A stretch of 64,000 nucleotides of DNA from Bryoerythrophyllum caledonicum (Eukaryota > Streptophyta > Bryopsida > Pottiales > Pottiaceae), in the NCBI GenBank assembly GCA_963971425.1, contig OZ020515.1, positions 17,190,291 through 17,254,290 of the forward strand, in the 5' to 3' direction. The translations under genes and the position numbers were made by a program. Below, piece by piece: positions 5,796 to 59,412 of the stretch. Within the stretch, counting starts at the first letter, position 1; each line of letters opens with the position of its first letter. The notes beneath the pieces are model-generated. The model was not told the origin of the DNA. It made no database searches and saw nothing but the letters and a program-made list of their open reading frames with translations.

Positions 5796-5859
5796 TGACG
5801 TCAGGTTTGTGAGAGGGGGACGAATGGGGTTGTGCCACGTGGCAGAGGAGTCTCATTGG
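5796..5859. promoter_or_regulatory. CRE-type, G-box and CCAAT motifs upstream of the ER J-domain gene
   Basis: A perfect TGACGTCA palindrome lies at 5796-5803, a 10-base palindromic G-box GCCACGTGGC at 5834-5843, and ATTGG (reverse CCAAT) at 5855-5859. They sit 590-650 bases before the J-domain start codon. bZIP factors of the unfolded protein response bind CRE/G-box cores, and CCAAT plus CCACG form ER stress elements. Here CCAAT and CCACG are 12 bases apart, not the 9 of the canonical ERSE. Regulation by ER stress is therefore an inference. Confidence 0.4.
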
Positions 5860-6710: not shown

Positions 6711-6775
6711 TAGAAAACATCCTTTTACTTCTCAGGTAAAATAGAAAACATGCTTTTACTTCTCAGGTAAAATAA
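6711..6775 (+). repeat. Tandem duplication, about 32 bp x 2
   Basis: A segment around cttttacttctcaggtaaaa, preceded by tagaaaacat, occurs twice in a row with one or two substitutions. It is non-coding and probably arose by slippage. Confidence 0.7.
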
Positions 6776-7224
6776 AAAGTATTAGAGGAGAGGTATAAAA
6801 CATCCAAAAGTGAAAGGACTAAGCCTGACCACTTAAAACCAAATAGCATTCAAACCTCTTGATTTCAAATAGAATTGGAAACCCAAAAATATTTTGTTTT
6901 TTTTGTCTTAAAGTGATTCATCGATCAGAGGCTTACTTTTTTGAAATTAAAAAAAATGAAGACTATTAAAGGATGTTGTCCTTGAGTTGAAAATATCAAC
7001 TAATATCAACTCATAAGCATACAATTTTTTTAATCTTTTTTCCTTTTCACAACTATTCAACACACTCCTAACCAATCAAGAGTATTCTATTAGCAAGGGT
7101 TACTAGGGGTAACCATACATTTGAATGCACTTTAGAATGTACGGTAACCCCTAGGAACCAACCAAAACTCATAACCAACACCTAATAAATTGGGGTATAT
7201 CCAACCCACTTCATCCCATTACCA

Positions 7225-7412
7225 CCAAATCAGCTCCAAATGGAGGTTTGCTATTAATTAGGACTCCTTACTTTGATCGGCACAGGGTACCTATTAATGG
7301 CCACCAGCTAAACATGGCAGCACACTTTGAAAATTCATAACTAATTCACATTTCATCAGAAAAATATGAAATCACTTGGGTTAAGATTGAAATTCTATGG
7401 GCAATACTTGAA
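7225..7412 (+). repeat. Dispersed repeat family R3, copy 2
   Basis: Same-orientation match to 2065-2278, strongest from aaacatggc through tatgaaatcacttgggtt. It lies 260 bases downstream of the TBC gene stop and may be part of its 3' flank. Confidence 0.6.
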
Positions 7413-7671
7413 AATTTTATTATTATTATTATTTGTTGTAAGGGGGGTTTACCTTAATTGTTGGACACTGCGAAGGAGCCTAAACAGACCAATTCTCTCA
7501 ACAACTATACAAAAGAAGATAGTTCCCCTTTCATTATGCTCAAAACAAGCCGGAAAGTGTATTTACAGAACAAGAACAGTTTTATCCCAGCGACTCCGAA
7601 TTTCTACATGTCACTCTGTTTTAAATGAAGCTTCTATACAAACGATCAATTCACAAAGCTGAGAGAGAGAC

Positions 7672-10600
7672 TTACAATGATACAGGAAAGCCTGAGTCTG
7701 CTTCCACAGACAGGGACGGTGGAGTTCCGGGAGGGATGCACGCTGCTCCTCTCTCCCCAGCAAACAGGCACAGCGCCTCTGTGTCGCGCAGCGTGGACTC
7801 CAAATCGATGTGCCCACTCAACTCGTTGATGAACTTGAGCAAGGTGTCGAACTCCATCTGCTCGTCCATGATCTTCCGCCGGTGGCGCTTCAAGATTGCC
7901 ACCGACATGTAGAGGTGAAAGTGGTCGGACAGGTAGTGGCTCCACAGCACTTCCCAGAGCCTGAGTACGTTGTTGTAGTCAAACTCCCTACAACCCAAAC
8001 GATTCTGTTAATCCTACCGACCAGAAAACATCTTATGTCATCAGAGAAAGGATATCCATATGATTCATGTCAACCCTCAAAGGATGAGCCAGTTGGATAA
8101 GGATTATGCTCACCTTTTGAAGCAGATCAACATCCACCGGAAGCAGAAGAAGTAGTTCAAGCATTCGTTCTGCTTGAAGTAGTCGTGCAGCGGGTTGTCC
8201 AGCAGCTGCACTAGCTGAAACAACATCTCCGGGAATGTAAGTATCACCAAACTATGCTTGAGAAGGAGCAGGAAAACGAACGATTATACAATTAGAACCT
8301 ACAGAGCATTAGTGCAAAGTAGACCTTGGATAAAGCGAGAAGCTGCGCGTGCATGCCGTTTTGATCCCGATGGAAATTCGGAGCCATTCTCTCCATAAGA
8401 GCAGCAAAGCACCAGAAAGCCTCAGACGCGTCTTGCATCACATATAGAATCGGCGACAGCAGGTCACTCATGCCCTGTGCATGATGGTTATGAATGAGGA
8501 TTTCACTTGAAGGATCATTTAAGAAACTGTTAGCACCCAACTGGTCTTCAAATGGTCTCAGATGTCAAGATGGCAGAGCTAAAAAACAGGTTTTCCTTCA
8601 TCAAAGATAACTGCTCACCTGGCAATATCCCAAGTCGAAATTGTAAAACGAGTATGTCACGAGAATGTCACGTAGAAGGCCCACATTTGGGTTGTCATCG
8701 CCCTCATAAAATGGAAGTGTTCGATCGGTTCTAACCTGTACAATTTCTAGAATTAGACGGGGTACCAGAGAGCTAATTGTGTGCTTTCAACGCTTTCATA
8801 GGAGCAATGCACCACATTGAACACGTCCGGATGCAAACACGACATAGTTATGAACAGACATACCACATCCTTCTCAACCCGGTGTTTTCTTTCCCGATAC
8901 TTGGCAAATCGCTTGGCTTGATCCTTGGATACGCTCTACAAATCGAAGTAGAGCAAAATTAGACATAAGGTTTGAAAGGAACATGTGAAAGGAAGAAAAG
9001 CATCTCTAAGGGTGGTTAGAATTCTTGTTTCAGGTCACTAACGGATCCTTCTCACATCTCTAACCACTGCAACTATTACTCAGCAAACCGAAGCCTAGAA
9101 TTTGTAAACATCAAGTAGGCCCTACACGAGAAACATATCATCGTATTAAAGCACAATGGCTGACCTTCCACTGTGACCGGAGAACTATGTACTCCTCACG
9201 TTTGGATGACACCGATGCTTTTCGCTCTGCATATGTGGAATCGAATTCGTAACGACCCAATAAGAATTTCCACAGCTGCAGAAACATGACAAAGATAGGT
9301 GAGAGAAGAGGTCAGGATGCACCGTCACTAGACAGAAGTTACAAATATACATCAATTGTGACAAGATTGGTGCAGCGAGCAGATGTGCATAAGGTAATAG
9401 TCATCAATAAAAATGACGTCGTCATAGATGCGAATAACCATCTTATTTACACATAAAATATTGCTAAGAAGATCTCGAATCTTACATAATCTACAGATGT
9501 GTCAAGTCCTGACTATCAAATGTAATCTTAGCATGGTTAGGATGATACCTCGGGACGCAGATTAGGTTCAACTCCACCATGAAAGACTCGCTTCTTGAGA
9601 GCTTTGGGATCTACTACCCGGCCTTCATTATCCAAAAAGGTTACCCACTGCACCTCGGCATGACAAAACCAGTGGCAAGATCAATAAGCCAATACTTGGG
9701 CATATACGATATTCTGTACCAGTTTCTATCTAGTGGAAAAAATAGAGCCCCTAATTTTACGTTTATAATACCCATGACTCTAATGATTAAAAGGCAACTA
9801 TCCATAATTATAACTTTCTGAGACTTCACCAAATTTAGCAGTGGAACAAACCTCTTCATGACCAAGTGGTGGTGGCCGCGCTCGTCCCCACACCAAAGCT
9901 GGAGAGTCATTCTGTAGTCGGTTGAAGTTAGATATCTAACAAGCGGAATGTTTTACACCTGAAAAATCTAATGGATGAAAGAGCAGTTGTTCCAACAGAC
10001 GATTCATAAATAAAAATTCAATACCTGAGTGCCATCAACAAGCTCAAAGCCGTCTTCATCACTATCTGCCTCTTTCTCATCGGTTGTATTCTTTTGGTTA
10101 GACTCCTCTTTCTCCTCCATTTCTCTCTCTTTCTCTTGATTCTGTTCAAAGAACACGACGCTTCTGTTAAACACATGTACTTGGCAGGCACAACAGTGGC
10201 ATGAGCATGTAAACGAAGTTACAATGACTACAAAGTTGAGCCTCTTAAAGAGGTTTAAAAAAAGATTCTGCATTGCCAAAGTGTGAAACCCGCTATCAAC
10301 CTCGACAGAAGATGCTTCTTTGCCACCAAGAGCAGAACTTGGAACTTGAGCATCACTTGGCAGTGCTCCTGTACTTCTTGAAACAACACTTCCATCATGT
10401 AACCTGTCACGTGAACCAACAAGAAGTCTCTTAACAAGTCTGCAAAAGAAAAGTAAATCGAGGATTCCTGATGCTAAAAAAGAGAATTGTGGACGAGAAC
10501 TTATTTTGAAACAGTAAGAGATACAACAGGGCAGCTCATCCGCGAGGACCTTGCACTTGAGACGATTAACATCATAGTGAATGGGCTAATAATCAAACCT

Positions 10601-33026: not shown

Positions 33027-36000
33027 TCAGAAATGAGGAGAGGCATGATCCCTTGAGGACTCCATGCTGCAAATGGTCATCTCTCTCTCCAGGAGAAGGA
33101 ACTCTTGAAGCTGTCTTTGGCTGAAGAGGTGATGAAGAGCTGTCTCCTTGGAAGCAACGAGCGAGATGAGATCCATGGATTCATCCTCGTCCTCTTCCGC
33201 TGTCTCTCGGGAACTTGCAGCAAGAAACACCTTGAGCTCCATGCAACGCAGGATGAGCTCGGGCAAACAACAGCGCCGGGACAGGCCTTGGAGAATGTAA
33301 GTGGCAGGGGTTCGGTGAAGCATGTTTTCGTCCCAACGCCAGGTCTCCATGGTGACAACTTCTAGAGCGAGGCCGGATTGGAAGTGCGGCATCTGCCCTT
33401 TGGCTGCTAGTGCTAAAATGGAGCCCAGAAGACCCCCGTCATGACCGGTTGCCAAGTCAAGCCCATCTCCAGAGACAGGCAAGCACCGTAATCTGACATC
33501 CACACAGTTGGAATCCCGCCTGTTCACGTCTACCTCCACAGTCAGCTGCCTTAGCAAACCCGCGTCCCCACCGCAATGATGTAGTGCGCTACTCAACGTG
33601 GTGCAAACAGTGGGATCAGGAGCCAGGTAGGCTCCAGTGCTTGCGGACATCAGCACAGCTGTGGCCTCAAGTTGTAACCATCCCACCTCCGTGTCTGCGC
33701 CCAATGTGGTGTCCATGCCCGCAAGCCACATGCCTTTGTCACTCGTCAGCAAGGCAGACGCTTGTTCCAGAGCCACCCGTGCAGCCGAAATGGCTCTCTC
33801 CTTCTCTTCAGTTGAGAGATACTCAGGCGGCACTTCGGCGTTCATTTGCTCAATGTTGAGCCAGCTTCGGTATAGACCGTCACACTCGTAGTAGAGCCTC
33901 CAATCTTCGAACTCCTGCAAATTCTCTTGCATACGATCGGGGAACTCGAGGGAGGCAAGAACGTCTGATGCCTGTTTTAGAGGCTCAGCCAATAGGCTTA
34001 GAAGTCTGTGCGGCCCGGCAGGGACCACAATTGTACGCAGCAAGGATGTCAAGGCAAATTCTCGGAACAACAGATTGCTGTGCTCTAGAGCCCGTGCCAG
34101 TAGCTCTGCTCGTATGCGCTCAACGTCCGGCATATTTACAGGGGGGGTAAAACACAGCCATTGCACAGCTTGGGCCTTCTGAGCACTTTGGAGCTGTCGC
34201 AATTCTCCTGTGCCCTGCCCTGACCCCTCCTCTTTCACTACTGCTTGCATGCCAGGCTTGATTTCTCGAGATCTGCTCAAGACCCTGCAGACCATCACCC
34301 GAGAACCACAAGAAACCTTGGTCAACATCTCAAACCATACATGAAGACCATACAATGGCTGTTTCTAGACTTCGTCACAAAATAAGGACACTGCACTACA
34401 GACACACCTTGACAATCGTTTCCTGCAAGTGGCTCTGCATACTTCACATTGACACCATATTTCACCCTAAACTACACCCTTCTCATTCAATACCCGCAAC
34501 CCAGAGTTGGGCAAGGGACAGAACACGAATGCAGGGTGCAACTAGATTCTCCCTCCCACCATTCTTCCCAAATTGAAAAAAATCATAAAAATGTTGGTTT
34601 GTAAGCAGATGATGGCACTTACTTGTCAAGTATGTCTGAGACGCAGCCCTTGCTTTCATCGCTACCTGGGGAAAAAGGCAGAAACTCAACGGCCGTACGA
34701 AATATCTTGTATTTGACGGGTACGGGATCATTCTGTCGGAGGTCCATGAAATTAACATAGAGCTCCACGCATAAATGAGGAGCCAATTGTGATGCATAGA
34801 CTCCCACGAGGTCTTCTTGGTGCTCAGTAAACAGAAAAATCACGTAGCCGTTGAGGATGAGGTCACCAACGATCCTTAACTTCTCAGCAACAATGTCATC
34901 TGTTGTATCTGCCAGAATACGCCGAAGAACAAGGACCAAGTGAGCTGCGAAACGAACTATCTGAGGATGACCATGGAACTTAATCATGCTGTCCTTCGGT
35001 ATCGTCCAATCTTTGAGCAAATCAAGAAGGTGGGAGAAGTCCCCAATAATAAGGTCCATTTGCACCAGCCTCTGCTGCTCTTTACAGCTCCGCTTCACGT
35101 TTTCATGCACCAGATCTCCAGAGTGCAGCTTCTGAAACATTCCCACAAGGTCACGAGGCTGCTGATCAATTACAGTATGCGGCCAGCTCTGAGGCCCTTC
35201 CGAAACCTCCATGTTCCCAGCAGTGATTGCTCTCCCCCGAGAAGCCTTAGGAGGATGCCGCTGTGAAAGCTCAGCATCCACCTGCGTATCCAGCCACGCT
35301 CGTGCCAGCGCCCAGCAAGCCGACTCCCAGTCGAAACAAACCGGCAGCATTCGCCTCACATTCCCACACTGAGACGCATACACAGCAGCTTCGTGCTTCG
35401 CCTCGTCGCCCCGGTCGCCTATCTTCTCCGACGCAATGTAACAAGCCCATTTCCACAGCCTCCGCTGGTGCGCAATCCCGCTTTCAAGCTCTTGCCCTTG
35501 CAGCGCTCTGTCCTTCCGAGTGTTACAAAACGCCTCCACTGACGGAGACGGTCCGAGGTCCCCGCACCCGCCAAGACTAGCCGCCCTCCACGGCTGGCCT
35601 GCACTGCGACAAAGATCCCGCGCTTCTCCCAGCCTCCCTGCCCGCAGCAACTTCCACACATCTTCCAGCAAATCCTCTTCCAATTTCTGGTCCTCGGGGT
35701 GCAACCGTCCGTGCTCTCGCGTCGGAGCATCGGGATCCACATTCTGCACCAGCATCGCATGGCCGGCATGCTTCCGGATCGCTCGCTGCGTCTGATGCCA
35801 CACACCTAGCTTCTGCATGTACGACCCCGCGTACCATCCCTTATGCTTCTTCTGGTAATCAAGATCCTTCGACGCCATCGTCTCCAACCACTGCACTATC
35901 CGCATACACTGCTGCACAAAAGGCTCCGACATAATAAACTGCACCGCCTGCTGCGTCGAAGTCGGCGGATACACCAGCGGATCATCAGCGTACATCTCCT

Positions 36001-36706
36001 GCGCTTCCTTCCCGAACAAATACCACAGCAGCAACCACGTCCCGGACTCCGCTTGCAGCATCTGCGCCGTCTGCCGCATCAGCCTCTCCTCCGTCACCCG
36101 GTGCCCTAACTCCGCCTCCTCCCGCACCACCTGCGCGAGGTCATGGCACGTCCCCTCACACTGCTCCATGAACGCCGGCAGCGACAGCTCGTCCTGCAGC
36201 GCCGCGTTCGTCATCGCCGCAAACCTCCCGTAGCTCTGCTCTGCGCTGTCCGGCATCTCCTCGCCAATCCCGGGCTCCGCCTTCACCTTCCGCAAAATCA
36301 CAGGAGTCCTACTCACAATCGGCGCCTCAATCCCCTCCTCCTCCTCGTCCTCCCGCCTCATCCACGGCGGCTGCTGCTCCTCATCGTCGTCGAAACTCAT
36401 CGGACTACTCAGAAACTCAGCTCGCAACCCTACCGGCGTCCGATACTCCCCCGGAAACGACGAGTGCATCCACGACTGGCGTGTCACGGACGGCGGCGAC
36501 GCCATCCCTTCGCTTCGCATGTCACGAAGCGACATCGACGGCGCTCCTCCACCCGTGCTCCCGAACACTCCTCCTCCTGCTGCTCCTCCCGCACTCTCTC
36601 CCGCATTCGCCTTCCGCCTGCGGTAGCGGCGGAATTGCTCCCGGGGCGCGGCCGGATCAAAGCGCTCTCCCCTGGCGATGTTGCCCTCGTCCGCCTCCCT
36701 TCCCAT
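33027..36706 (-). CDS. NUP107: Nuclear pore complex protein NUP107
   Basis: Two exons, 36706-34623 and 34284-33027, join in phase to 1,113 residues, near the length of other plant NUP107 proteins. An N-terminal disordered part (about 1-160) with GERFDPAAPREQFRRYRRR is followed by the long alpha-helical Nup84/Nup107 domain (HDLAQVVREEAELGHRVTEE, WLLLWYLFGKEA, KKHKGWYAGSY and so on). It belongs to the Y-shaped NUP107-160 scaffold of the nuclear pore. Only one intron (338 bases) is left, far toward the 3' end, while neighbouring genes have 12-17 exons. Codons are GC-rich at third positions in exon 1. It is divergent to RPN2, with 588 bases between the start codons. Confidence 0.93.
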
Positions 36707-37102: not shown

Positions 37103-37152
<50 letters not shown>

Positions 37153-37294
37153 ACATCAAGGCTTGTGTGTCTCTTTGGACAGCAAGACAGGGTTTGAAGC
37201 TCGATTCGGTCCTGCTCGTGGTCGGGTTGTGTAGAGTTTGTACATGTTTTGGTAGGGTTTGCAGGAGGAGAGGGGGGAGGAGCAGGCGATCGCC
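36707..37294. promoter_or_regulatory. Divergent promoter between NUP107 and RPN2 copy 1
   Basis: Head-to-head genes leave 588 bases. On the RPN2 side there is a long (CT)n tract at 37104-37149, a telobox TAGGGTTT at 37253-37260, and a gtttgcag acceptor-like end just before the coding region. The right boundary of the duplicated RPN2 arm (37181) falls inside this region, so only this copy keeps the CT tract and the shared promoter. Confidence 0.6.
37104..37149 (+). repeat. (CT)n microsatellite in the RPN2 copy 1 leader
   Basis: About 23 uninterrupted CT units, 145 bases upstream of the RPN2 start codon. CT-rich leaders are common in plant housekeeping genes. It is not part of the inverted duplication: copy 2 has unrelated DNA at this place. 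Confidence 0.9.
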
Positions 37295-40200
37295 ATGACG
37301 TTGGTGAGCACGGCGAGCGGCCTGCTGGCGATGCTGCAGGAGGAGCATCCGACGCTGAAATTGCACGCGTTGAAGAATCTGAATGTGCTGGTGGACAACT
37401 TCTGGCCGGAGATTTCGACGAACATCTCCGCCATCGAGTCGCTGTACGAGGATGAGGCGTTCCACGAGCGGCGGCTGGCCGCGCTGGTGGCGTCGAAGGT
37501 GTTCTACTACCTGGGCGAGCTGAACGACTCGCTGACGTACGCGCTGGGCGCGGGGCCGCTGTTCGACGTGTCGGAGGACACGGAGTACGTGCAGACGCTG
37601 GTGGCCAAGTGCGTGGACGAGTACATTTTGTTGAGCGTGAAGGCGGCGGAGGCGGGGTTGGAGGCGGAGCGCGGGGCGGCGCTGGATCCCCGGCTGGTGG
37701 CGATCGTGGAGCGGATGCTGGACAAGTGCATGCAGGACGGGAAGTTCCAGCAGGCGGTGGGGATCGCGCTGGAGTGCCGGCGGTTGGACAAGCTGGAGGA
37801 GGCGATTGGGCGGAGCGAGAACGCGCCGGCGATGCTGTCGTACTGCCTGCGGCTGTCGCAGACGTTCGTGAGCAGGCGCGAGTTCCGGCACGAGGTGCTG
37901 CGGCTGCTGGTGAGGAGCTACCAGGCGCTCCAGCAGCCGGATTATCTGAGCATCTGCCAGTGTTTGATGTTTCTGGAGGAGCCGGCGGGCGTGGCGGCGA
38001 TTCTGGACAAGCTGCTGCGCGGGGACAAGAGCGAGGCGCTGCTGGCGTACCAGGTGGCTTTCGACCTGTTCGAGAACGAGTACCAGAAGTTTCTGTTGAA
38101 TGTGCGGGATCTGCTGCCGGAGCCGGCGGTGAGCAGCGCGGCGGCAATTCAAGTGACGGATGCGGGGTTGAGTCAGCGCGAGAACGGGATCAGCGCGATG
38201 ACGGACGGGGGCCCGACGGCGATGGATTCGGACAGCCTGAGGGAGCCGTTGCTGGCGCGGCACGAGGCGGAGGAGGCTGCGGACGCAGCTGCGGCGGCTG
38301 CGGCGGAGGAGCGGTCGCCGTATGCAGAGAGGCTGGCGAAGCTGAAGGGCATCCTGTCCGGGGAGACGCCGATCAGCCTGACGCTGCAGTTTCTGTACAG
38401 CCACAACAGGTCGGATCTGCTGATTTTGAAGACGATCAAGCAGTCGGTGGAGATGCGGAACAGCGTGTGCCACAGCGCGACGATCTACTCGAACGCGCTG
38501 ATGCACGCGGGGACGACGGTGGACACGTTTCTGCGGGAGAACCTGGACTGGCTGAAGCGGGCGACGAACTGGGCGAAGTTCAGCGCGACGGCGGGGCTGG
38601 GGGTGATCCACCGCGGGCACCACCAGCAGGGGAGGTCGCTGATGGCGCCGTACCTGCCGCAGAACGGGGGGACGGGGGGCGGGAGTCCGTATTCGGAGGG
38701 CGGAGCGCTGTATGCGCTGGGGCTGATCCACGCGAACCACGGGGAGGGCATCAAGCAGTTTCTGCTGGAGAGCCTGCGCAACACGAGCAACGAGGTGATC
38801 CAGCACGGGGCGTGCCTGGGGCTGGGGCTGGCGGCGCTGGGGACGGCGGACGAGGAGATCTACGAGGACGTGAAGAACGTGCTGTACACGGACAGCGCGG
38901 TGGCGGGGGAGGCTGCGGGGATCGCGATGGGTCTGCTGATGGTGGGGACGGCAAGCGAGAAGGCGACGGAGATGCTGGCGTATGCGCACGACACGCAGCA
39001 CGAGAAGATCATCCGGGGGCTGGCGCTGGGGATCGCGCTGGTGGTGTACGGGCGCGAGGAGGAGGCGGACACGCTGATCGAGCAGATGACGCGGGACCAG
39101 GACCCGATCCTGCGGTACGGGGGGATGTATGCGCTGGCGATGGCGTACCGTGGGACGGCGAACAACAGCGCGATCCGGCGGCTGCTCCACTTTGCGGTGT
39201 CGGACGTGAGCGACGACGTGCGGCGGACGGCGGTGCTGGCGCTGGGGTTCGTGCTGTGCTCGGAGCCGGAGCAGACGCCGAGGATCGTGTCGCTGCTGTC
39301 GGAGTCGTACAACGCGCACGTGCGGTATGGGGCGGCGATGGCGGTGGGGATCTCGTGTGCGGGTTCGGGGTCGAGCGAGGCAATCTCGCTGCTGGAGCCG
39401 CTGACGTCGGACGCGGTGGACTTCGTGCGGCAGGGTGCGCTGATCGCGATGGCGATGGTGCTGCTGCAGACGACAGAGGCGCGGGAGCCGAGGGTGGCGA
39501 CGTTCCGTCGGCAGCTGGAGAAGATCATCAACGACAAGCACGAGGAGACGATGAGCAAGATGGGGGCGATTTTGGCGCAGGGGATCCTGGACGCAGGGGG
39601 CCGGAACGTGGCGATCATGCTGCAGTCCCGGACGGGTCACGACCGCATGACGGCGGTGGTGGGGATGGCGGTGTTCAGCCAGTTCTGGTACTGGTACCCT
39701 CTGATCTACTTCATCAGCCTGTCGTTTGCGCCAACGGCATTCATCGGGCTGAACGAGGAGCTGCGGATGCCCAAGTTCGACTTCGTGTCGGAGACGAAGC
39801 CGTCGCTGTTCGGGTACCCTCCATCGGTGGCCCCGCCGGCGGCGACATCGGCGGTGAAGGTGCCGACGGCGGTGCTGTCGACGTCGAACCGGGCGAAGGT
39901 GCGGGGTGCGAAGAGGGAAGCGGAGGCGAAGGCGGGGAAGGCAGAGTCGACGAAGGTGGAGGTTGTGGGGGGCGAGGAGGGCGAGAGGGAGTCGAGCTCG
40001 GGAGGGAAGGACGAGAATGCGATGGAGGTGGAGGGTGCGGCTGCGTCGGAGAAGAAGGTTGCAGCGGCGGAGGCGTCGTCAGAGGTGCTGAGCAACCCGG
40101 CACGCGTGGTGCCGGCGCAGGAGAAGTTCATAAAGTTCCGGGAGGACTCCCGATATGCACCGCTGAAGCTGAAGCGGGCGCCGTCAGGGTTCGTGATGCT

Positions 40201-40570
40201 TCGGGACATGACGCCGTCAGAACCCGTGGAGCTGGTGTCAACGGACACGCCGGTGTCAGGCGGGGCGGGGGGAGCGGCTGCGGTGGCGAACCCTAGCGCC
40301 GGAGCGATGGCCGTGGACGACAACGAGCCTCCGCCGCCCGAGCCATTCGAGTACGTGCCCTGAGAATGGGAAGAGGCGCAGTCTGTAGGTTAGGGGACGC
40401 ATGCTTGTGGGTAACTTGGGGTGCATGCCCGGACAGCACGCTGATGTCAACTGTTTATACACCATCATATTCTTCTCTGCCGGTCGAAACGTGGAGGCAG
40501 CTTCAGTGATTGATGTCATCTGTGAAATTTTCCTTGTAATGATAAGAGGGTCTTCAAAATCTAGAAATTT
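37181..40570 (+). repeat. Left arm of the RPN2 inverted repeat (about 3.39 kb)
   Basis: From agcaagacagggtttgaag to about 40570 this segment is matched in reverse complement by 44907-48297. It spans part of the 5' leader, the whole RPN2 coding region and about 207 bases after the stop. I count seven coding differences by eye, all before about 38330, plus a few in the leader. The inner two thirds look identical. Confidence 0.93.
37295..40363 (+). CDS. RPN2: 26S proteasome regulatory particle non-ATPase subunit RPN2 (PSMD1), copy 1
   Basis: A single uninterrupted frame of 1,022 residues, close to the roughly 1,000 of other plant RPN2 proteins. The ATG giving [14 protein letters not shown] was chosen because it matches the family N-terminus; an upstream in-frame TTG is not needed. 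The N-terminal helical part ([36 protein letters not shown]) is followed by proteasome/cyclosome repeats (about 440-780, for example [17 protein letters not shown] and [13 protein letters not shown]). Then come a Lys/Glu-rich acidic insert (about 870-950) and the C-terminal [19 protein letters not shown] block. RPN2 forms a scaffold of the 19S base and helps dock ubiquitin receptors and the deubiquitinase. It is intronless within the coding region and strongly GC-rich at third positions. This copy has the NUP107-shared promoter. Confidence 0.96.
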
Positions 40571-41650
40571 CTTGGGGCATGGTTTGTTGGTTCTTTGCTG
40601 GAATGGGGTCTTGTCTGAGTAGTTAGCGGTGTGGTTGCGATTGCTACGTGAACCCATGGTTCTGTTGAGTCAGAATCACACAAGCTGAAATATATCGTAC
40701 AAGGTTGGAACAATGGTGGAGGATTTGTTTTTATTAAGTAAGTAGCTAGCCACGACAGTCCTGATTTTGACATCTTTCGGTTATTTGAAATTTTTAAATA
40801 GTAGCAAGTGCTGCTTCCATGGAGTTTTTGGTCTGAGAGACTGCAAGCACATCTTCAAAATTTGGTGATGTACTGTACATTGGCTGGGAAATTGGTTCTG
40901 CAAGTCGTAAAGTGGCGGATCTGCTAGGAGCTTTAACAAACAGATGGTGGTATTACATTACTACAATAGAACGTGCAACTAGGCAAATTGATAATAAGGG
41001 GTCAAACCTGCTCTAAGACCGTGGTGGAAGCTGGTGGGACCGACGCCGAAGCCCGTGGAACTTGAAGAGCGTCACGATTGTGAAGGGGAAGTTTTTCCTC
41101 CAAGTTCAAAGTTACTTTGTTCGTATCGTGGTTGTCTGACGCAGCTAGGGATCGCCGCACGTTATTCTTCGCACAAGAAGCATCACGCTCCTCAGGTCGT
41201 TCGCAATTCGCTCCACATCGGATCATTCCTCGCAAAGGAAACCGCAGGAAAACCGGATTAGTGTGGCGCACATCAAGTTAACCTACCTTATTTGCTACGG
41301 AAAGGAGAGAGAGGGGACGTGCGGAAGACGAGAGCGCTATGCTGGAGGTTCGGAGGTTTTAGGAGGTAGAGGTGATGGACGAGAACGCAGTGTTTCGGTT
41401 CAACTTCGGGGGAACGCCGCAGCCGCAGCCGCAGCCGCAGCAGGTGTGCTTGCTGGTCCCTCAAGTTTTTTGATGCGTGAATCGGCCGTTTTGAGGACTG
41501 GTTTGTGTTGGACGGCAGGATTTGGTTTATAGTCCGTTGGGAGAGCAGTGTGTTGATGTTTTGGAGAGCTGTTTAATTGAGAGCTTGGAGGAGGAGGAGA
41601 GAGAGTTGTAGAGAGCGTGGAGAGGTTTTGAGGTTGGAAGGAGAGGAGAT
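40364..41650. other. RPN2 copy 1 3' flank and METTL18 upstream region
   Basis: The first 207 bases belong to the inverted repeat; after 40570 the sequence is unique to this side. An ATG at 41375 opens a 32-codon frame (MDENAVFRFNFGG then Gln-Pro repeats) that may be an upstream open frame or an alternative first exon of the METTL18 gene. No other gene is seen. Confidence 0.5.
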
Positions 41651-44360
41651 ATGAGAGGGCCGTCTCTCTTCGCCTGCTTTCCAGGCTTGACGAATAACTG
41701 TTTGCTCCAGGCTCTCTTGAAGAATAGCAATGCTCTCTGTATTGCTGCGGACCAGCCGCTTCTGCCTCAGCCTCCGCCTTCCGAGGAAGTGTTTCCGTCG
41801 GAGGTTCGTTTCTTGACACTGCTTTCTTTTCTCTAGCCTCAGTTGTTTTCTTGACAACATTTCTACTCTCCACTGCTGCACACAAGGGAACGGGAATATA
41901 TGAGAGGTGATACGTGTTTTGAAGAAACGTAGAACTGGCGCATCTAGTTGCAATTGCAGCGATTGTGTCGAAGATTTGAAGGGATATTCTGGTGGACGTT
42001 ACTGTTTGGCGATGTGTGAGAGTTTTACTCTTTTATTGTTTGACTGCAGGCAGAGGAGTCCACGTCCTGTGTGATGGAGCCTATCGCTTTACAAGGTGGC
42101 TTGACGCTTCTCAAGGTAGATGTTATTCTGTGGTTTGATGCGATTCGACCGTGTGTAGCGTCAACATTATCTGATGTATGACGGATGCCAAGGTTTATGT
42201 AGGGTTTAACCTGGCCATTGATCAGATTTTATAAATTCACTTGCGAGAGAATTCTCAGTTTCGCGTTCTTTTTTTTTGATGACAGGGCCGAGTGAATAGC
42301 CAAAACATACTCAATTTGGCCAACTCGGACTTAGTTCCCGGAAAGTATGAAGGTACTGGATTTTATTTCTGAAACATCGCTACTGACTCTGATCTGATTC
42401 TTTTCCTGTGACACTTTTAGAAATGAACAATTCAAGTGTTTTTCTGGCATTAGATTTTGCAATCGCAGGCTGACCACGAACGTAATGTCTGATGTAGGAG
42501 GATTGAAACTCTGGGAATGCACCATTGATCTCGTTGAAACTCTGCGTCGGGAAATCCAAGATGGACAGTTATCATTTCGTGGAAAGCGTGTGCTTGAGGT
42601 ATCCTACGGATATCTCTCGTCGAATGTTAACCACTGGAACTTGATCGTATGATTAGCTTATGCTTGATTTTTGTGTGATTCTATCGTAAACATTCCGATT
42701 TTCTTGTCGTGTTGAAGAGCTCTGATATCTTGCTGGATTGACGATGATGTTGCTGACTATATTCTTGCCTTTTCCTATGCGCAGCTCGGCTGTGGACATG
42801 GTCTTCCCGGAATCTTTGCATGCTTAAAGGTGAGATAGACATTGCAGTAGCCACTTTCAGTCCAGGATTCAAAAGTGATGCCGGCATTTGGCACCATCTA
42901 TCGCATATTTTGCAATCTCTTCGGTTTCTTACTGGAAGAGACAGATCTGTGCTGGGTTTGGTATTAGACCCATGCGCTCACGGGGAGTGATGGCTTTAGG
43001 AGGTGGTATTGACTCTAATATACCAGTAGTGTCAACGCAGTGCAGGAGGCACATTGGAATTGCTCATTACTGAACTGTGCTTGTTGCATGCAACAGGGTG
43101 CATCTAGTGTTCATTTTCAGGACTTCAATGCTGAAGTGTTAAGAAACCTTACGATAAAAAATGTGCAAGCCAACTTGGAGCAAGTACGAGGGGGTCTTGT
43201 TAGAATAAACTCTGTTAATTCTGACGGAATTGCGGCAAACAAAGGTTTAGCTGTATCACCTGATATTCACTACTATGCTGGTGACTGGTCAGATGTACAC
43301 GACGTGCTGTCCGTAGTGCGGTCTGATTCAGCTGGAAGTGGTGATAATGAGGATGGAGCCTTCAACTTCAGGTTCAACGAAAGTGAGTTATACGAGCCTA
43401 TGTCAGAGAGTGGGAATAATGAGATCAAGAGTGGTGGGCTTAGTCGCACTGGCTCCAGGAATCGACTTGCGAGGAAGCTTTCTGGAAGTCAGGCTTGCGA
43501 TAGGGGGCATGCTAACACTACTCAAGAAGGTGGGTATGACATTATACTAATGTCTGAGACTGTCTACTCGTTGGCATCACTTCCGAAGCTTTACGAGCTT
43601 ATTAAAAAGGTACATGCTTGGTTCTCTTGTGTCACATGCAACCTTTTGAAATGTTTCATACGATGTTAGTTTTTGATCACTTCCGATTCCCTCTTTTACA
43701 ATTGAAGTCTTAATTTATTGGCTCGACCTTTTGAGTGCAGTGCATACGTCCTCCTTATGGAGTTGTGTACGTAGCGGGTAAGAAACATTACTTCGGAGTT
43801 GGAGGAGGTACTCGTCAGTTCAAACATCTGGTTGAGGATGATGGTACGTATTTGAGACTGGCATTTACCATCTTCTCTTAGAAGAATATAACGTTCACAC
43901 GAAAGTCAAACCTTATGGAGCTGGAGGTTCTGCGAACCTTTTTTTGTAGTGATTGCATCTTTTTGTGAAACATGCGTTCCTGTTGATGTACACCAATCCC
44001 TGTAATCTATTCCATTTCAGCTACATTGCCTTTACAATGGATCACTAGCGGAAAGTAGCTGTGCTCATGTGTGAATTTGTCCATACACTTTGTTAGCTGA
44101 GTTCTGGAACTAAAATGTAGCGCTGGTAATTGTCCACCACTAATCGTTTTTTAAGTTTGACATGTATTGTCATCGTATTGTATGTTTTAACTCTTTGTTT
44201 CATATTTGATATACTAACCAATGGCAGTAAATACTAAGTTCCATCTTTCTAACTGTGCTTCATAATTCTTTTCGCAGGTGTTATGGCGGCACACCTAGTC
44301 GCTGATTTCGCGGATGGGTCCTCAAATGTTCGGGAAATCTGGAAATTCTTCTTCAGGTGA
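41651..44360 (+). CDS. METTL18/Hpm1-type protein-histidine N-methyltransferase (At2g43320-like)
   Basis: Eight exons join in phase to 376 residues: 41651-41803, 42050-42115, 42286-42352, 42498-42598, 42785-42829, 43097-43609, 43741-43843, 44278-44360. The start gives MRGPSLFACFPGL, like the N-terminus I recall for Arabidopsis At2g43320. Family blocks are GGLKLWECTIDLVETL, SAM-binding motif I VLELGCGHGLPGI (about 127-139), the post-I ASSVHFQDFNAEV, YDIILMSETVYS, and the C-terminal KKHYFGVGGGTRQF. In yeast and human this family methylates a histidine of ribosomal protein uL3. A Ser/Gly-rich insert (about 210-260) is plant-like. An upstream FRFNFGG peptide at 41375 resembles the N-terminus of animal METTL18 and could be spliced on. 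The gene lies in the spacer of the RPN2 inverted repeat. Confidence 0.9.
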
Positions 44361-44906
44361 CTGAACAGATGCTAAAGATAGCACTCTCAAGTCATGCAAG
44401 GGTGGATGTCGAAACTATTGAGTTTCAACGTAGGCTATGCCTGTTGCCTCTGCACTTCGAAGTCCACTGTCTACAGCGGCTTCAATTCTGGTGAATGCAC
44501 GATTCTCACCACTGATTGGCTGTCTCAGGAGACATACTTAAAGTTCGACTGTCCACATTTATTAGAAACAAGGTTATAAGAACACTATTAACGCCAGAGT
44601 TCATCACGTGTCGTTTATGCGGTTACTAATCAAACTACACAATTCTTTGTGCACGCATTGCAGTTTGGAATCTAGCAGTAAAGTAGTGAAACATGGCTTG
44701 ACACTGCAACTCAAGAACTTCAGAACTACACACAAAATCATCCTAACAGAAGACTGGGTTCCTAACAAAATGCAACAAACAAAATCCAGCACCAAAATTA
44801 CAGGAACTCAAAACTAAACAACCAACTGTCCAACACAACAAACAAAAAATCTACCAGCTACACAGGATTCCAACATCAACAACACCGATCAGAGGAAAGT
44901 CGTTAA
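44361..44906. other. METTL18 3' flank, inner edge of the RPN2 inverted repeat
   Basis: 546 bases between the METTL18 stop and the right arm. AT-rich on the right (A/C-rich plus strand at 44700-44880). It probably holds the 3' UTR of METTL18. RPN2 copy 2 is transcribed toward it, so the two 3' ends converge here. Confidence 0.5.
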
Positions 44907-47900
44907 AAATTTCTGGATTTTGAAGACCCTCTTATCATTACAAGGAAAATTTCACAGATGACATCAATCACTGAAGCTGCCTCCACGTTTCGACCGGCAG
45001 AGAAGAATATGATGGTGTATAAACAGTTGACATCAGCGTGCTGTCCGGGCATGCACCCCAAGTTACCCACAAGCATGCGTCCCCTAACCTACAGACTGCG
45101 CCTCTTCCCATTCTCAGGGCACGTACTCGAATGGCTCGGGCGGCGGAGGCTCGTTGTCGTCCACGGCCATCGCTCCGGCGCTAGGGTTCGCCACCGCAGC
45201 CGCTCCCCCCGCCCCGCCTGACACCGGCGTGTCCGTTGACACCAGCTCCACGGGTTCTGACGGCGTCATGTCCCGAAGCATCACGAACCCTGACGGCGCC
45301 CGCTTCAGCTTCAGCGGTGCATATCGGGAGTCCTCCCGGAACTTTATGAACTTCTCCTGCGCCGGCACCACGCGTGCCGGGTTGCTCAGCACCTCTGACG
45401 ACGCCTCCGCCGCTGCAACCTTCTTCTCCGACGCAGCCGCACCCTCCACCTCCATCGCATTCTCGTCCTTCCCTCCCGAGCTCGACTCCCTCTCGCCCTC
45501 CTCGCCCCCCACAACCTCCACCTTCGTCGACTCTGCCTTCCCCGCCTTCGCCTCCGCTTCCCTCTTCGCACCCCGCACCTTCGCCCGGTTCGACGTCGAC
45601 AGCACCGCCGTCGGCACCTTCACCGCCGATGTCGCCGCCGGCGGGGCCACCGATGGAGGGTACCCGAACAGCGACGGCTTCGTCTCCGACACGAAGTCGA
45701 ACTTGGGCATCCGCAGCTCCTCGTTCAGCCCGATGAATGCCGTTGGCGCAAACGACAGGCTGATGAAGTAGATCAGAGGGTACCAGTACCAGAACTGGCT
45801 GAACACCGCCATCCCCACCACCGCCGTCATGCGGTCGTGACCCGTCCGGGACTGCAGCATGATCGCCACGTTCCGGCCCCCTGCGTCCAGGATCCCCTGC
45901 GCCAAAATCGCCCCCATCTTGCTCATCGTCTCCTCGTGCTTGTCGTTGATGATCTTCTCCAGCTGCCGACGGAACGTCGCCACCCTCGGCTCCCGCGCCT
46001 CTGTCGTCTGCAGCAGCACCATCGCCATCGCGATCAGCGCACCCTGCCGCACGAAGTCCACCGCGTCCGACGTCAGCGGCTCCAGCAGCGAGATTGCCTC
46101 GCTCGACCCCGAACCCGCACACGAGATCCCCACCGCCATCGCCGCCCCATACCGCACGTGCGCGTTGTACGACTCCGACAGCAGCGACACGATCCTCGGC
46201 GTCTGCTCCGGCTCCGAGCACAGCACGAACCCCAGCGCCAGCACCGCCGTCCGCCGCACGTCGTCGCTCACGTCCGACACCGCAAAGTGGAGCAGCCGCC
46301 GGATCGCGCTGTTGTTCGCCGTCCCACGGTACGCCATCGCCAGCGCATACATCCCCCCGTACCGCAGGATCGGGTCCTGGTCCCGCGTCATCTGCTCGAT
46401 CAGCGTGTCCGCCTCCTCCTCGCGCCCGTACACCACCAGCGCGATCCCCAGCGCCAGCCCCCGGATGATCTTCTCGTGCTGCGTGTCGTGCGCATACGCC
46501 AGCATCTCCGTCGCCTTCTCGCTTGCCGTCCCCACCATCAGCAGACCCATCGCGATCCCCGCAGCCTCCCCCGCCACCGCGCTGTCCGTGTACAGCACGT
46601 TCTTCACGTCCTCGTAGATCTCCTCGTCCGCCGTCCCCAGCGCCGCCAGCCCCAGCCCCAGGCACGCCCCGTGCTGGATCACCTCGTTGCTCGTGTTGCG
46701 CAGGCTCTCCAGCAGAAACTGCTTGATGCCCTCCCCGTGGTTCGCGTGGATCAGCCCCAGCGCATACAGCGCTCCGCCCTCCGAATACGGACTCCCGCCC
46801 CCCGTCCCCCCGTTCTGCGGCAGGTACGGCGCCATCAGCGACCTCCCCTGCTGGTGGTGCCCGCGGTGGATCACCCCCAGCCCCGCCGTCGCGCTGAACT
46901 TCGCCCAGTTCGTCGCCCGCTTCAGCCAGTCCAGGTTCTCCCGCAGAAACGTGTCCACCGTCGTCCCCGCGTGCATCAGCGCGTTCGAGTAGATCGTCGC
47001 GCTGTGGCACACGCTGTTCCGCATCTCCACCGACTGCTTGATCGTCTTCAAAATCAGCAGATCCGACCTGTTGTGGCTGTACAGAAACTGCAGCGTCAGG
47101 CTGATCGGCGTCTCCCCGGACAGGATGCCCTTCAGCTTCGCCAGCCTCTCTGCATACGGCGACCGCTCCTCCGCCGCCGCCGCTGCAGCCGCGTCCGCAG
47201 CCTCCTCCGCCTCGTGCCGCGCCAGCAACGGCTCCCTCAGGCTGTCCGAATCCATCGCCGTCGGGCCCCCGTCCGTCATCGCGCTGATCCCGTTCTCGCG
47301 CTGACTCAACCCCGCATCCGTCACTTGAATTGCCGCCGCGCTGCTCACCGCCGGCTCCGGCAGCAGATCCCGCACATTCAACAGAAACTTCTGGTACTCG
47401 TTCTCGAACAGGTCGAAAGCCACCTGATACGCCAGCAGCGCCTCGCTCTTGTCCCCGCGCAGCAGCTTGTCCAAAATCGCCGCCACGCCCGCCGGCTCCT
47501 CCAGAAACATCAAACACTGGCAGATGCTCAGATAATCCGGCTGCTGGAGCGCCTGGTAGCTCCTCACCAGCAGCCGCAGCACCTCGTGCCGGAACTCGCG
47601 CCTGCTCACGAACGTCTGCGACAGCCGCAGGCAGTACGACAGCATCGCCGGCGCGTTCTCGCTCCGCCCAATCGCCTCCTCCAGCTTGTCCAACCGCCGG
47701 CACTCCAGCGCGATCCCCACCGCCTGCTGGAACTTCCCGTCCTGCATGCACTTGTCCAGCATCCGCTCCACGATCGCCACCAGCCGGGGATCCAGCGCCG
47801 CCCCGCGCTCCGCCTCCGACCCCGCCTCCGCCGCCTTCACGCTCAACAAAATGTACTCGTCCACGCACTTGGCCACCAGCGTCTGCACGTACTCCGTGTC

Positions 47901-48297
47901 CTCCGACACGTCGAACAGCGGCCCCGCGCCCAGCGCGTACGTCAGCGAGTCGTTCAGCTCGCCCAGGTAGTAGAACACCTTCGACGCCACCAGCGCGGCC
48001 AGCCGCCGCTCGTGGAACGCCTCATCCTCGTACAGCGACTCGATGGCGGAGATGTTCGTCGAAATCTCCGGCCAGAAGTTGTCCACCAGCACATTCAGAT
48101 TCTTCAACGCGTGCAATTTCAGCGTCGGATGCTCCTCCTGCAGCATCGCCAGCAGCCCGCTCGCCGTGCTCACCAACGTCATGGCGATCGCCTGCTCCTC
48201 CCCCCCTCTCCTCCTGCAAACCCTACCAAAACATGTACAAACTTTACACAACCCTCCCACGAGCAGGACCGAATCGAGCTTCAAACCCTGTCTTGCT
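44907..48297 (-). repeat. Right arm of the RPN2 inverted repeat (about 3.39 kb)
   Basis: Reverse complement of 37181-40570. The inner junction lies within aaatttctgg, where the left arm has aaatttcttgg and identity stops. The outer junction is at tcttgct followed by a C-rich run unrelated to the left side. No flanking target duplication or poly-A tract was seen at either end. Confidence 0.93.
45114..48182 (-). CDS. RPN2: 26S proteasome subunit RPN2 (PSMD1), copy 2
   Basis: Same length and frame as copy 1: 1,022 residues, intronless, start MTLVSTASG. The only residue difference I can see is Leu to Ser in the KAAEAG(L/S)EAERG stretch at about residue 121. Other differences are silent: GGC/GGG, CTG/TTG, TAC/TAT and three alanine codons near residue 335. 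All domains of copy 1 are present, so the protein should work in the 19S base. The duplicated leader keeps the telobox (48218-48225) but ends 115 bases before the start codon, so this copy lacks the (CT)n tract and the NUP107-shared promoter. Whether it is transcribed depends on the unrelated DNA beyond 48297. Confidence 0.95.
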
Positions 48298-48766: not shown

Positions 48767-50274
48767 TTTGCTTGGACGTTGATTGAAAAATCGTTAATAT
48801 TTTTTAGGAGGTGCATGAGTTTTGAAGAATTCGTTGTTAAGAATTGAGGGAAGTAAGTTGCAGAAATGGAATGTTTAAGCCACATGTATGGAATTCTTTG
48901 AAGCATGGGAATTTTGGAATGTCTTTAAATAGTTATTACAACCATTTATTCAAAGTGATTTCAAAGTAGAAGATAAAAGTGCATGGTATTTGCTATGGTA
49001 CTCTTGAAGTGAAAGACCAAAGTTCCTCTGAGGAAAGTAAATGCCTACCTAGAGCATCGTATGATTTAGAAGAGTACTCAAACATTTAAGGAAAATCCAC
49101 TATTGCTTGAAAAGTAACCCACTTTGAAAATTCTCGTTTCTTTAAGTAGATTGAAATTATAATCCATATTGTTGCATTATTTCTCAAGTGCACCAATGAA
49201 GTCGTAATTTTAGGTCATATTGTCTATGTAAATTGTGTATATAATATGTCTGCCTATCATTCCATAAGGGCCTATATACTTCAAATTTTACAAGACAAGT
49301 ATATTTTTTAAAAATTGGAACCCTTGAATAGTATATCTCTGTATACACCTCTTGCTTTTACACCATAAATAAATTGTCAATAATTATTTATAATTTGTAA
49401 TGATATGCACGTTTAAATATTATAATATATTACCTTAAACTTTAAACAAAATATAATATGAGTGTGATAATGAATAGTCATTATCACACTTTAATAGTCA
49501 TCCGCACTCCTAAAAAACCGGTTTGTGACAGTTTTTCCATACTAGCGTACCGGAATTTTTCCTTGATGCATAAGAAAAGTAACTTACCATTATTGGCACC
49601 CACTCAATTTCAATGATACAAGAGGTTACCCAAACATTTGTAATAGAGTATTATATAATTATTTGAAACTATTCATGGTATCTTTTCCTCACTCTATGAA
49701 TTAATTGTGAATTATTTTCCTACAATTATTTGAAACTATTCGAGAAGTCGGATTTGGGTTGCAACAAGATGTTTTTGATGCATTTTACATATAAGGTGTA
49801 AGAATTGATGTATTCAATAATTACAAACGTTTGTAATTATATCGAGCTCGATTCAATGGCACATGAAATTTCAAATTTCAATCATTAATGTACCTACTAC
49901 CGTATCCTTGGTTACGGTTTGGCAAAAAATATTTATAAAAATAGCTGCCAATTTTTTTGAAAAATATTTTTTATAACCATTAATTTTTTAAAACGGTGAA
50001 AAATAGACTTTGATAAATAAAAATTTGAACTTTGCTACAACTTCTATTTTTATAAATAAACTAGCAGTCGGCGCTTGCTTTGCAATGCATTAGTTCAACC
50101 ATTTTAATGTAGTTTTTATATCACAAAATATTAAAAAGAAAGGTAACAATAATTTACATAAAATACAAATATGTCTTTGAAACCTATGCATGAATTTTAA
50201 TAATGTAAAAGAATAGAATAGGAGAAAAATAAATTAGTTTTAGGTTCTTGCATTTTAACAAGGAATTTCAAAAA

Positions 50275-50710
50275 TGTTTTGAACGTCAAATTTGTAATCA
50301 AGAGTTTCAAATTTGTAATCAAGAGTTTCAAATTTGTTTTGGATAAACACAAATTGCAAGACACAAATGCAAATTTCACACATCCACAAACTCAACTTGC
50401 AATTACAATCTCAATTCCACACACTCACAAACTCAATTTGCAATTACAATCTCAAAACTTGCAATCTCACCTCAAAACTTGTAATTTCAATCTCCACAAC
50501 TCAAATATGCAATTTTGCAACTCCAACTTTGTATGCTAATCTCCAAGATCACAACCCCAACTTCACAACTCCAACTTTTGTACTCCAAGGTTACAACTCA
50601 TACTTTACAATTCAATCAATAAGTGTTTAACTCAAAAAATATTTTGAACGTCAAATTTGTAATCAAGAGCACAAATTGCATTACACAAATGCAAATTTGA
50701 CACACTCAGA
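50275..50710 (+). repeat. Local AT-rich direct repeats
   Basis: The block from tttgaacgtcaaatttgtaa to about 50395 recurs at 50640-50712 with the sequence between partly lost. Inside, aagagtttcaaatttgtaatc is tandemly doubled at about 50296-50335, and cttgcaatt/acaatctca words alternate to 50560. Non-coding. Confidence 0.65.
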
Positions 50711-50771
50711 AACTCAAGACCCTAAATTTCAAAACCGAGCAGTAAACCACACAACAATCAACCGCATAGGA

Positions 50772-50955
50772 ACCGCGCAAATTATGATTTTAGTAGTATA
50801 TAATAGACTGTTAAATCAAAAACATATAGAGCAAGGTTGACTGCGCAATTAACTGCGCGGTTGGCTATAGCGTTTCTGTAGTTCACTGCACCATTGACTG
50901 CGTGGTTGATCGTTGCGTGGTTTGCTGCGCAGATTATGATTTTAGTAGTATGATA
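50772..50955 (+). repeat. Direct repeats around gattatgattttagtagtat and gcgcggttg words
   Basis: The word attatgattttagtagtat occurs at about 50780 and 50935, framing several copies of actgcgcggttg-like 17-20-base units. It is a small, decayed minisatellite. Confidence 0.55.
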
Positions 50956-51723: not shown

Positions 51724-51888
51724 ATAACTTGAAGCGACTCCGTTCCCACCGCGAACGAGGCAGAAAGAGGGTTCAAGAATAACCCGAAGTGACCGACTCC
51801 GTTCCCACCGCGAACGAGGCGGAAAGAGGGTTCAAGAATAACCCGAAGTGACCGACTCCGTTCCCACCGCGAACGAGGCGGAAAGAGG
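51724..51888 (+). repeat. 59-bp tandem array running into the assembly gap
   Basis: Nearly three copies of a 59-base unit containing gactccgttcccaccgcg and gaacgaggcggaaagagg. The last copy is cut by the N run. Copies 2 and 3 are identical where visible. GC-rich, in contrast to the AT-rich DNA to the left. It probably marks the upstream part of the following gene. Confidence 0.9.
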
Positions 51889-52088
51889 NNNNNNNNNNNN
51901 NNNNNNNNNNNNNNNNNNNNNNNNNNNNNNNNNNNNNNNNNNNNNNNNNNNNNNNNNNNNNNNNNNNNNNNNNNNNNNNNNNNNNNNNNNNNNNNNNNNN
52001 NNNNNNNNNNNNNNNNNNNNNNNNNNNNNNNNNNNNNNNNNNNNNNNNNNNNNNNNNNNNNNNNNNNNNNNNNNNNNNNNNNNNNNNN
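51889..52088. other. Assembly gap (200 N)
   Basis: Exactly 200 undetermined bases, a round number typical of a placeholder gap of unknown true size. It follows a tandem array, the likely cause of the break, and hides the 5' end of the first chloroplast RNA-binding gene. Confidence 0.97.
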
Positions 52089-52831
52089 CGTCCGTGAGCA
52101 TGGCCGCGCCCGCGATGTGCTCTCTGTTCGCGTCGGAGGTTGGGAAGGGCTCCTCGCGGAGCGGGATGAATGCCGCCATTGTGGCGCGCGCGTCGGACTT
52201 AGGGCAGAGCGCGGAGGCGGAGGCGGAGGCGGAAGCCGCGCCGGAGGTGCAGCAGGGGTCGAAGTTGTACGTAGGGAATCTGCCGTGGACGTGCAACAGC
52301 ACGCAGCTGGCGGAGCTCTGCCAGGAGCACGGGACGGTGGAGGCCGTGGAGGTGATCTACGACGCGGCGAGCGGGCGCAGCCGGGGGTTTGCGTTCGTGA
52401 CGATGGCCAGCAACGCGGACGCGCAGGCGGTGATCGCCGCTATGGACGGGAGCGACTTCGGCGGGCGCGTGCTGCGAGTGAACTACCCCCAGGCGAAGGG
52501 GGATAAGCCGCGGTTCGAGAGGAGCGAGCGGCCGGAGAGGCGTCAGGGCCAGGGCCGGCGCGAGGACAGCCCGAACAAGCTGTTCGTTGGAAACCTCGCC
52601 TGGGGCTGCGACGACGAGCAGCTGCACCAGCTGTTCTCCGACTACGGCAAGGTCGTGGAGGCCAGGGTTGTCATAGACCGGGAGACCGGCAGGTCGCGCG
52701 GCTTCGGATTCGTCACCTTGGAGAACGCCTCTGAGGTAAATTCCGCCATTGAGAGTCTCGATGGAACTGAGGTTGATGGACGTCAGTTGAGAGTCAACCT
52801 GGCCGGGGACAAGCCCCCTCCCAGATTCTAG
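52089..52831 (+). CDS. Chloroplast ribonucleoprotein with two RRMs (cpRNP), copy 1, 5' end in gap
   Basis: The open frame leaves the N gap in phase and runs 247 codons to a TAG at 52829. It contains an Ala/Glu-rich acidic linker and then RRM1 with RNP2 KLYVGNLPW and RNP1 RGFAFVTM. A basic spacer (RFERSERPERRQGQG) and RRM2 with KLFVGNLAW and RGFGFVTL follow, then the tail DKPPPRF. Two RRMs behind an acidic plastid-targeted N-terminus define the cpRNP family (CP28/29/31/33), which stabilise, edit and process chloroplast mRNAs. The transit peptide is only partly visible. There is no intron in the visible part. It is a paralogue of 58522-59412, sharing whole blocks such as GMNAAIVARA and PNKLFVGNL. 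Confidence 0.93.
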
Positions 52832-58521: not shown

Positions 58522-59412
58522 TCAGAAGCGGGGGGGAGGCTTGTCGCTGGAGAGGTTGACTCTCAAGGGTCTGCCGTCGAAGTCGCTGCCGTTGAGGTTG
58601 TCGATGGCGGACCTAGCCTCGGACTCGCTGTCCAAGGTGACGAACCCGAAGCCGCGCGACCTGCCGGTCTCCCGGTCCACGACAACCTTGGCGTCCACGA
58701 CCCTGCCGTAGTCGGAGAACAGTTGCTCCAGCGCGGACTCGTCACAGCCCCAGCTGAGGTTGCCGACGAACAGCTTGTTCGGGCTGTCCTCGCGTCTCTG
58801 GCCCCGGCCCTGGCCCTCGCCGCCAGCGCGCCTGTCCGGCCTCTCACTCCGCTCGTAGCGCGGCCTATCGCCCTTCGCCTGCGGGTAGTTCACGCGCAGC
58901 GGCCGGCCGCCGAGGTCGCTCCCGTCCAACCCGGCGATCACGTCCGCGGCGTCCTTATTGCTCGCCATGGTCACGAACGCGAACCCCCGGCTGCGCCCGC
59001 TATCCTGGTCGTAGATCACCTCCACGGCCTCCACGGTGCCGAAGTCCTGGCAAATCTCCGCCAGCTGCGCGCTGTCGCACGTCCACGGCAAGTTCCCGAC
59101 GTACAGCTTCGACCCTTGCTGCACCGCCGGCGCCGGCTCAGGCGCGCCCTCGTCCGCGCCCTCGTCCGCGCCCTCTCCGCCCGCCTCCTCCGTCGCCAAG
59201 TCGAAAATCTCCGCGGCACGCGCCACAATGGCGGCGTTCATGCCGCCCGTCCTCTTCGGAAACTCCGCGAACACACACGACATCGCGGCAGGCGACGCGC
59301 CCACGCCCATGCTCACCACGGACGTCGAGCGCCCCTGCGCGCCCTCCGCGCGCGCCACCACCGCGGCGAACCGCGTGCTGGCCACGCTCATGCTCATGCT
59401 GGCGGTCGCCAT
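58522..59412 (-). CDS. Chloroplast ribonucleoprotein with two RRMs (cpRNP), copy 2
   Basis: Intronless frame of 296 residues. The first about 55 residues (MATASMSMSVASTRFAAVV onward) are rich in Ala, Ser, Thr and Arg and poor in acidic residues, as in plastid transit peptides. An acidic linker (72-95, two GADE repeats) follows. RRM1 (about 102-180) has RNP2 KLYVGNLPW and RNP1 RGFAFVTM; RRM2 (about 213-292) has KLFVGNLSW and RGFGFVTL. The Arg-rich spacer contains a GEGQGRGQRR stretch. The expected role is binding many chloroplast transcripts for stability and editing in the stroma. Arabidopsis cpRNP genes have introns as I remember them; this one has none. It is oriented tail to tail with copy 1, about 5.7 kb away, and the proteins share roughly 70 percent of residues by eye. 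Confidence 0.94.
   Translation of the reverse strand: MATASMSMSVASTRFAAVVARAEGAQGRSTSVVSMGVGASPAAMSCVFAEFPKRTGGMNAAIVARAAEIFDLATEEAGGEGADEGADEGAPEPAPAVQQGSKLYVGNLPWTCDSAQLAEICQDFGTVEAVEVIYDQDSGRSRGFAFVTMASNKDAADVIAGLDGSDLGGRPLRVNYPQAKGDRPRYERSERPDRRAGGEGQGRGQRREDSPNKLFVGNLSWGCDESALEQLFSDYGRVVDAKVVVDRETGRSRGFGFVTLDSESEARSAIDNLNGSDFDGRPLRVNLSSDKPPPRF

Follow-up and report, generated by a model that had tools for sequence, protein, structure and literature searches.

The question raised by this locus was how two complete copies of the gene for the proteasome subunit RPN2 came to face each other across an unrelated gene, and why the differences between them are so unevenly placed. The window, that is the whole stretch of 64,000 nucleotides that was analysed (C2:17190291-17254290, G000), belongs to a genome of 437.4 Mb in 894 contigs. 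An initial annotation had proposed a young inverted duplication of the whole gene around another gene, followed by gene conversion. The features needed to follow the argument were as follows, in window positions.

33027..36706, minus strand: Nup84/Nup107-like gene next to RPN2 copy A, oriented divergently from it (PF04121, 2.1e-71 and 8.8e-9 for two ORFs)
37104..37149, plus strand: CT repeat shortly before the left arm, a possible core-promoter pyrimidine patch
37181..40570, plus strand: left arm of the inverted duplication (self-BLAST, base-by-base alignment)
37295..40363, plus strand: RPN2 copy A, intronless intact ORF of 1,022 codons (RPN2_N 1.5e-91, RPN2_C 4.2e-45)
38300..40561, plus strand: run of 2,262 bp without a difference, a candidate for a converted tract (47177-44916 is the matching run in the right arm)
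40571..44906, no strand: spacer, not duplicated, 4,336 bp
41375..44360, plus strand: intron-containing METTL18-like gene for a histidine methyltransferase (limits and exons approximate, by eye)
44907..48297, minus strand: right arm of the inverted duplication (self-BLAST, base-by-base alignment)
45114..48182, minus strand: RPN2 copy B, intact ORF of 1,022 codons, with one amino acid and six silent differences from copy A

Two facing copies of RPN2

Self-BLAST of the window aligned 37181-40570 with 48297-44907 at 99.646% identity over 3,391 columns, with 11 mismatches and one gap. In this self-comparison the arms were the sole long near-identical inverted repeat in the window. A search of 93,991 bases around the window gave 12 repeat pairs of at least 300 bp at E values up to 1e-20, and the RPN2 pair was the only one above 91% identity. 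The only N run of the window (200 N, 51889-52088) was located outside the inverted structure. The arm started 114 bp before the ATG and ended 207 bp past the stop codon, and the two copies were arranged tail-to-tail, pointing at each other. The initial annotation was therefore confirmed in its description of two intact facing copies (99.65% identical arms, both ORFs of 1,022 aa), of a 4.3-kb spacer and of a segment running from the leader to about 207 bases after the stop. With two complete copies of almost the same sequence placed in opposite orientations within one contig, the locus is a nearby inverted gene duplicate. A young whole-gene inverted duplicate around another gene was supported, as had been proposed.

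Both ORFs matched RPN2_N, RPN2_C and proteasome/cyclosome repeats. The best PDB matches of copy A were PSMD1/RPN2 chains, with 8amz chain N covering residues 3-1021 at 1,499.6 bits. The N- and C-terminal domains and the repeats over the full length identified the product as the 26S proteasome subunit RPN2/PSMD1. Copy A, which lies beside the Nup107-like gene, was presumably the parent, and both copies are presumably expressed. Nothing useful came from a scan for bacterial promoters or from folding the 3' end as RNA.

A profile search with RPN2_N found four places in the genome, namely the two arms, C2:8.65 Mb and the contig C276. The gene at C2:8.65 Mb was diverged (51.6% and 61.0% amino acid identity over two pieces). 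The C276 gene showed 87% protein identity and 74% DNA identity over its length, or 75-80% in pieces. In addition, a DNA search gave two short RPN2 pieces, on C4 and C14. A 50-bp stretch at C4:1827360-1827409, on a chromosome-sized contig, was 96% identical to bases 469-519 of the RPN2 arm. The initial annotation had considered a fresh second copy surprising for a dosage-balanced subunit. This argument was weak and overstated, because RPN2 already has a diverged second gene at C2:8.65 Mb, RPN1_C matched two large contigs (C14 and C9) as well as the small contig C302, and Arabidopsis carries two RPN2 genes, RPN2a and RPN2b, as described in part of PMC11546751.

The hand-joined exons of the spacer gene matched Methyltransf_16 (1.7e-11) and 4rfq, histidine protein methyltransferase 1 homolog (4.1e-28), which we take to be METTL18. 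A DNA search with 41300-44500 and 44570-44906 gave no other match in the genome. Since neither the spacer gene nor the inner flank of the right arm matched elsewhere, only the RPN2 segment was copied. A larger duplication taking in the METTL18-like gene or the flanks was rejected, as no such matches were found.

The outer side of the right arm had features of its own. A search with this flank returned at least 83 matching genome pieces, itself included, most of them at a dispersed repeat of about 900 bp (50059-50954). Tandem units of 59 bp at 51735-52088, with copies 98.9% identical, ran into the 200-N gap, so the assembly may lack an array at this place. Across the gap, about 4 kb beyond the RPN2 pair, a second tail-to-tail inverted pair was found, consisting of genes for two-RRM proteins (52100-52831, plus strand; 58522-59412, minus strand). 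This pair was much older, with 175 of 240 aligned amino acids identical and a dS of about 0.55.

Differences between the arms and the candidate conversion tract

The base-by-base alignment, which the initial annotation had called for, gave 12 differences. Seven affected the coding sequence, and of the others four fell in the leader and one at the 3' end. Those in the 114-bp leader were at 37222, 37223 and 37234, together with an extra base that the right arm carries after 37271. The coding differences were in codons 9, 122, 237, 252, 331, 333 and 335. Only codon 122 (Leu/Ser) changed the protein; the other six were silent. Some differences were clustered, at 37222-37223 and as three within an alanine-codon tract. 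The claim that all seven coding differences lie in the first third of the gene and that six are silent was thus correct (codons 9-335). The inner two thirds of the gene were identical as described; however, the identity did not reach the end of the arm, where one difference was found at 40562, 9 bp from the inner edge.

We examined whether such a pattern was expected by chance. For 12 differences spread evenly, P of a stretch of identity as long as 2,262 bp was about 3e-5 (300,000 simulations; 1.5e-5 in 200,000), and with the clustered changes grouped as nine events P was about 4e-4. The probability that all seven coding differences fall within the first 335 of 1,022 codons was 4e-4. Comparison with the C276 gene, the only outgroup, gave identical four-fold sites at 56/121 in codons 1-335 and 77/314 in codons 336-1022; amino acids were identical at 279/312 and 625/681 positions, respectively. 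The value of 77/314 is close to that expected by chance; C276 is therefore saturated in this region, and a cold spot does not account for the identity of that part. A slowly evolving inner part was rejected on the same grounds. The uneven differences and the long identical tract were therefore unexplained by constraint, in the sense that this saturated outgroup excludes a cold spot and gives no rate measure.

The dS between copies A and B was 0.0078 over the whole gene and 0.025 over the first 335 codons. At a mutation rate of 7e-9 per site per generation, the latter value corresponds to about 1.8 million generations, as an order of magnitude only. Polarising by C276 placed four of the seven coding differences, the other three being in gaps. 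Copy B appeared derived at codons 9, 252 and 335 and copy A at 237, a weak indication given the saturation of the outgroup.

The 2,262-bp identical run supported gene conversion as the initial annotation had suggested. The proposed working from the inner side of the palindrome cannot be read from this run, because one tract, several tracts or a copy taken from a different allele would look alike. Neither donor nor direction is readable from the arms, and a copy from a different allele could itself have given the mosaic. A length of 2.26 kb is long for one tract, and several events may have contributed. In the review PMC3966223 (section 4.1), tabled conversion tracts of C. elegans range from 12 to 2,958 bp, and surviving Caenorhabditis tracts tend towards 50-200 bp. 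Section 4.3 of the same review relays the suggestion that conversion favours same-orientation paralogues.

Origin of the inverted pair

The pair was best explained by a local inverted copy of one gene at the DNA level followed by gene conversion, which we regard as probable though well short of certain. In a single event, about 3.39 kb with the whole intronless gene would have been copied in inverted orientation to a site a few kilobases away. We infer a route through template switching during replication or through repair of a break with the neighbouring gene as the template. Interlocus conversion between the two facing arms would later have removed the differences from at least 2.26 kb on their inner side. 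Local DNA copying was favoured by one gap-free stretch, copies 4.3 kb apart, near-identity, sharp edges and intact ORFs. In C. elegans, adjacent inverted pairs were frequent among newborn duplicates (PMC2728529), and of the young human duplicates on the same chromosome 77 of 143 were inverse, not significantly more than direct (PMC4546093). Against it, the arm ends sit about where transcript ends are expected, which a random DNA event need not produce, and the junction letters, read by eye, had no shared microhomology. The conversion step was weakened by the length of 2.26 kb compared with usual tracts, by the small number of differences (12, some clustered), by the saturation of the only outgroup, and by the suggested preference for same-orientation paralogues, which does not help facing arms.

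The position of the arm ends would be explained if RPN2 mRNA or cDNA had been copied into a nearby break, so that the arm spans from transcription start to poly(A) site, 4.3 kb from the parent. The left arm begins at a C|A step, 31 bp past the CT tract, and a C|A step at a transcription start is initiator-like. It ends about 25 bp after TGTAATGATAAG, which we take to resemble a plant poly(A) signal, and the DNA upstream of copy B is unrelated. However, neither copy showed the marks of a retrocopy, since neither a poly(A) tract nor a target-site duplication was seen at the junctions read by eye. In a genome of 437 Mb, a copy inserted at random would also be very unlikely to land as close as 4.3 kb unless insertion was local. 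An RNA template thus explains the arm ends and not the closeness of the copies, and we consider this origin unlikely. Both copies and the C276 gene are intronless, with an apparent intron only in the diverged gene at C2:8.65 Mb; because the C276 relative is also intronless, intron loss is no test of RNA templating. An old inverted duplication, in which recurrent conversion kept the gene body alone alike while the flanks diverged long ago, seemed quite unlikely. It would agree with the crowding of four of the 12 differences into the outermost 114 bp and with a weak, diffuse similarity score in the inner 800 bp, reached by 10 of 200 shuffles, and conversion can make old duplicates seem young and hide their first span, as noted in part of PMC2728529. 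However, the inner score started more than 100 bp from the edge, and the outer 600 bp beyond the arms had no residual similarity, their score being reached by 78 of 200 shuffles. Homology ended abruptly at all four arm edges and did not decay.

The assembly itself gave some reason for caution, as one arm might have been misjoined or copy B might come from a second plant. rbcL was present on C821, C590 and C894, and psaA and psaB differed between C894 and C821 (722/740 and 746/766 ORF positions identical). These differing sets, with C821 as another plastome-like contig next to C894, make it probable that the assembly contains a second plant. The rbcL protein matched PDB chain 9chz best, and PsaB of C894 was closest to 7ksq, 6l35 and 8htu, which come from the moss Physcomitrium and give a lead rather than an identification. 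C276 and C302 may derive from it; for C276 this is suggested by a 1,741-bp non-coding stretch with only short matches elsewhere in the genome. The phage/plant composition of C276 is a further sign that mixtures and chimeras occur in this assembly. This contig of 24.65 kb, without N, was phage-like from base 1 to about 18545, and the remainder was plant DNA with the intronless RPN2 gene. Among seven ORFs tested, phage PHROGs for portal, major head, head closure, DNA ejection and HNH were found, and bases 1-8000 had only two short matches to phage records. C276 is probably an assembly chimera. For the RPN2 pair, however, an artefact or mixture appeared highly improbable. The four flanks were different, the 4.3-kb spacer had no other DNA match, 12 differences separated the arms and no N lay inside. 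Read palindromes from a missing adapter have no spacer. In addition, the C276 gene, as the candidate second-plant RPN2, was only 74% identical in DNA over its length and is not copy B. Taken together, the most likely history of the RPN2 pair was a recent local duplication of an ordinary kind, with gene conversion removing part of the differences.

Comparison with known inverted pairs

Newborn inverted duplicates, such as low-KS pairs of C. elegans and young human pairs, likewise lie close together on the same chromosome in opposite orientation with low divergence, according to parts of PMC2728529 and PMC4546093. The RPN2 pair differs from these in that an unrelated gene lies between the copies and in that the gene encodes a proteasome subunit. 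It was not an adjacent inverted pair as defined in section 4.3 of PMC3966223, where no locus intervenes. Because of the METTL18-like gene in the spacer, it was classified as nearby.

Among plant systems, PAI1-PAI4 of Arabidopsis Ws is a tail-to-tail inverted gene pair with the same geometry (part of PMC3431836), and the RPN2 pair shared this arrangement with silencing inverted repeats of the PAI/CHS type. The soybean I locus, with its CHS1-3-4 cluster, is likewise an inverted repeat of plant genes (part of PMC3804491). However, PAI1-PAI4 triggers DNA methylation of unlinked copies (PMC3431836) and the I locus comprises several genes over 27 kb, for which siRNAs have been reported (PMC3804491); for the RPN2 pair the analysis covered the sequence. 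It also differs from PAI1-PAI4 in its 4.3-kb spacer with a gene of its own. Arabidopsis RPN2a and RPN2b are likewise two RPN2 genes in one plant, and the passages of PMC11546751 on them do not describe a young inverted pair. A literature search, in which RPN2 was only sometimes a term, gave no paper joining RPN2 with an inverted duplication, and we do not claim its absence from print.

The pair leaves knowledge of the proteasome unchanged. It provides a clean and young case, from a moss-like genome, of a complete gene duplicated in inverted orientation in which a conversion tract can be read, and it might be used to study the birth, homogenisation and silencing of facing plant gene copies.
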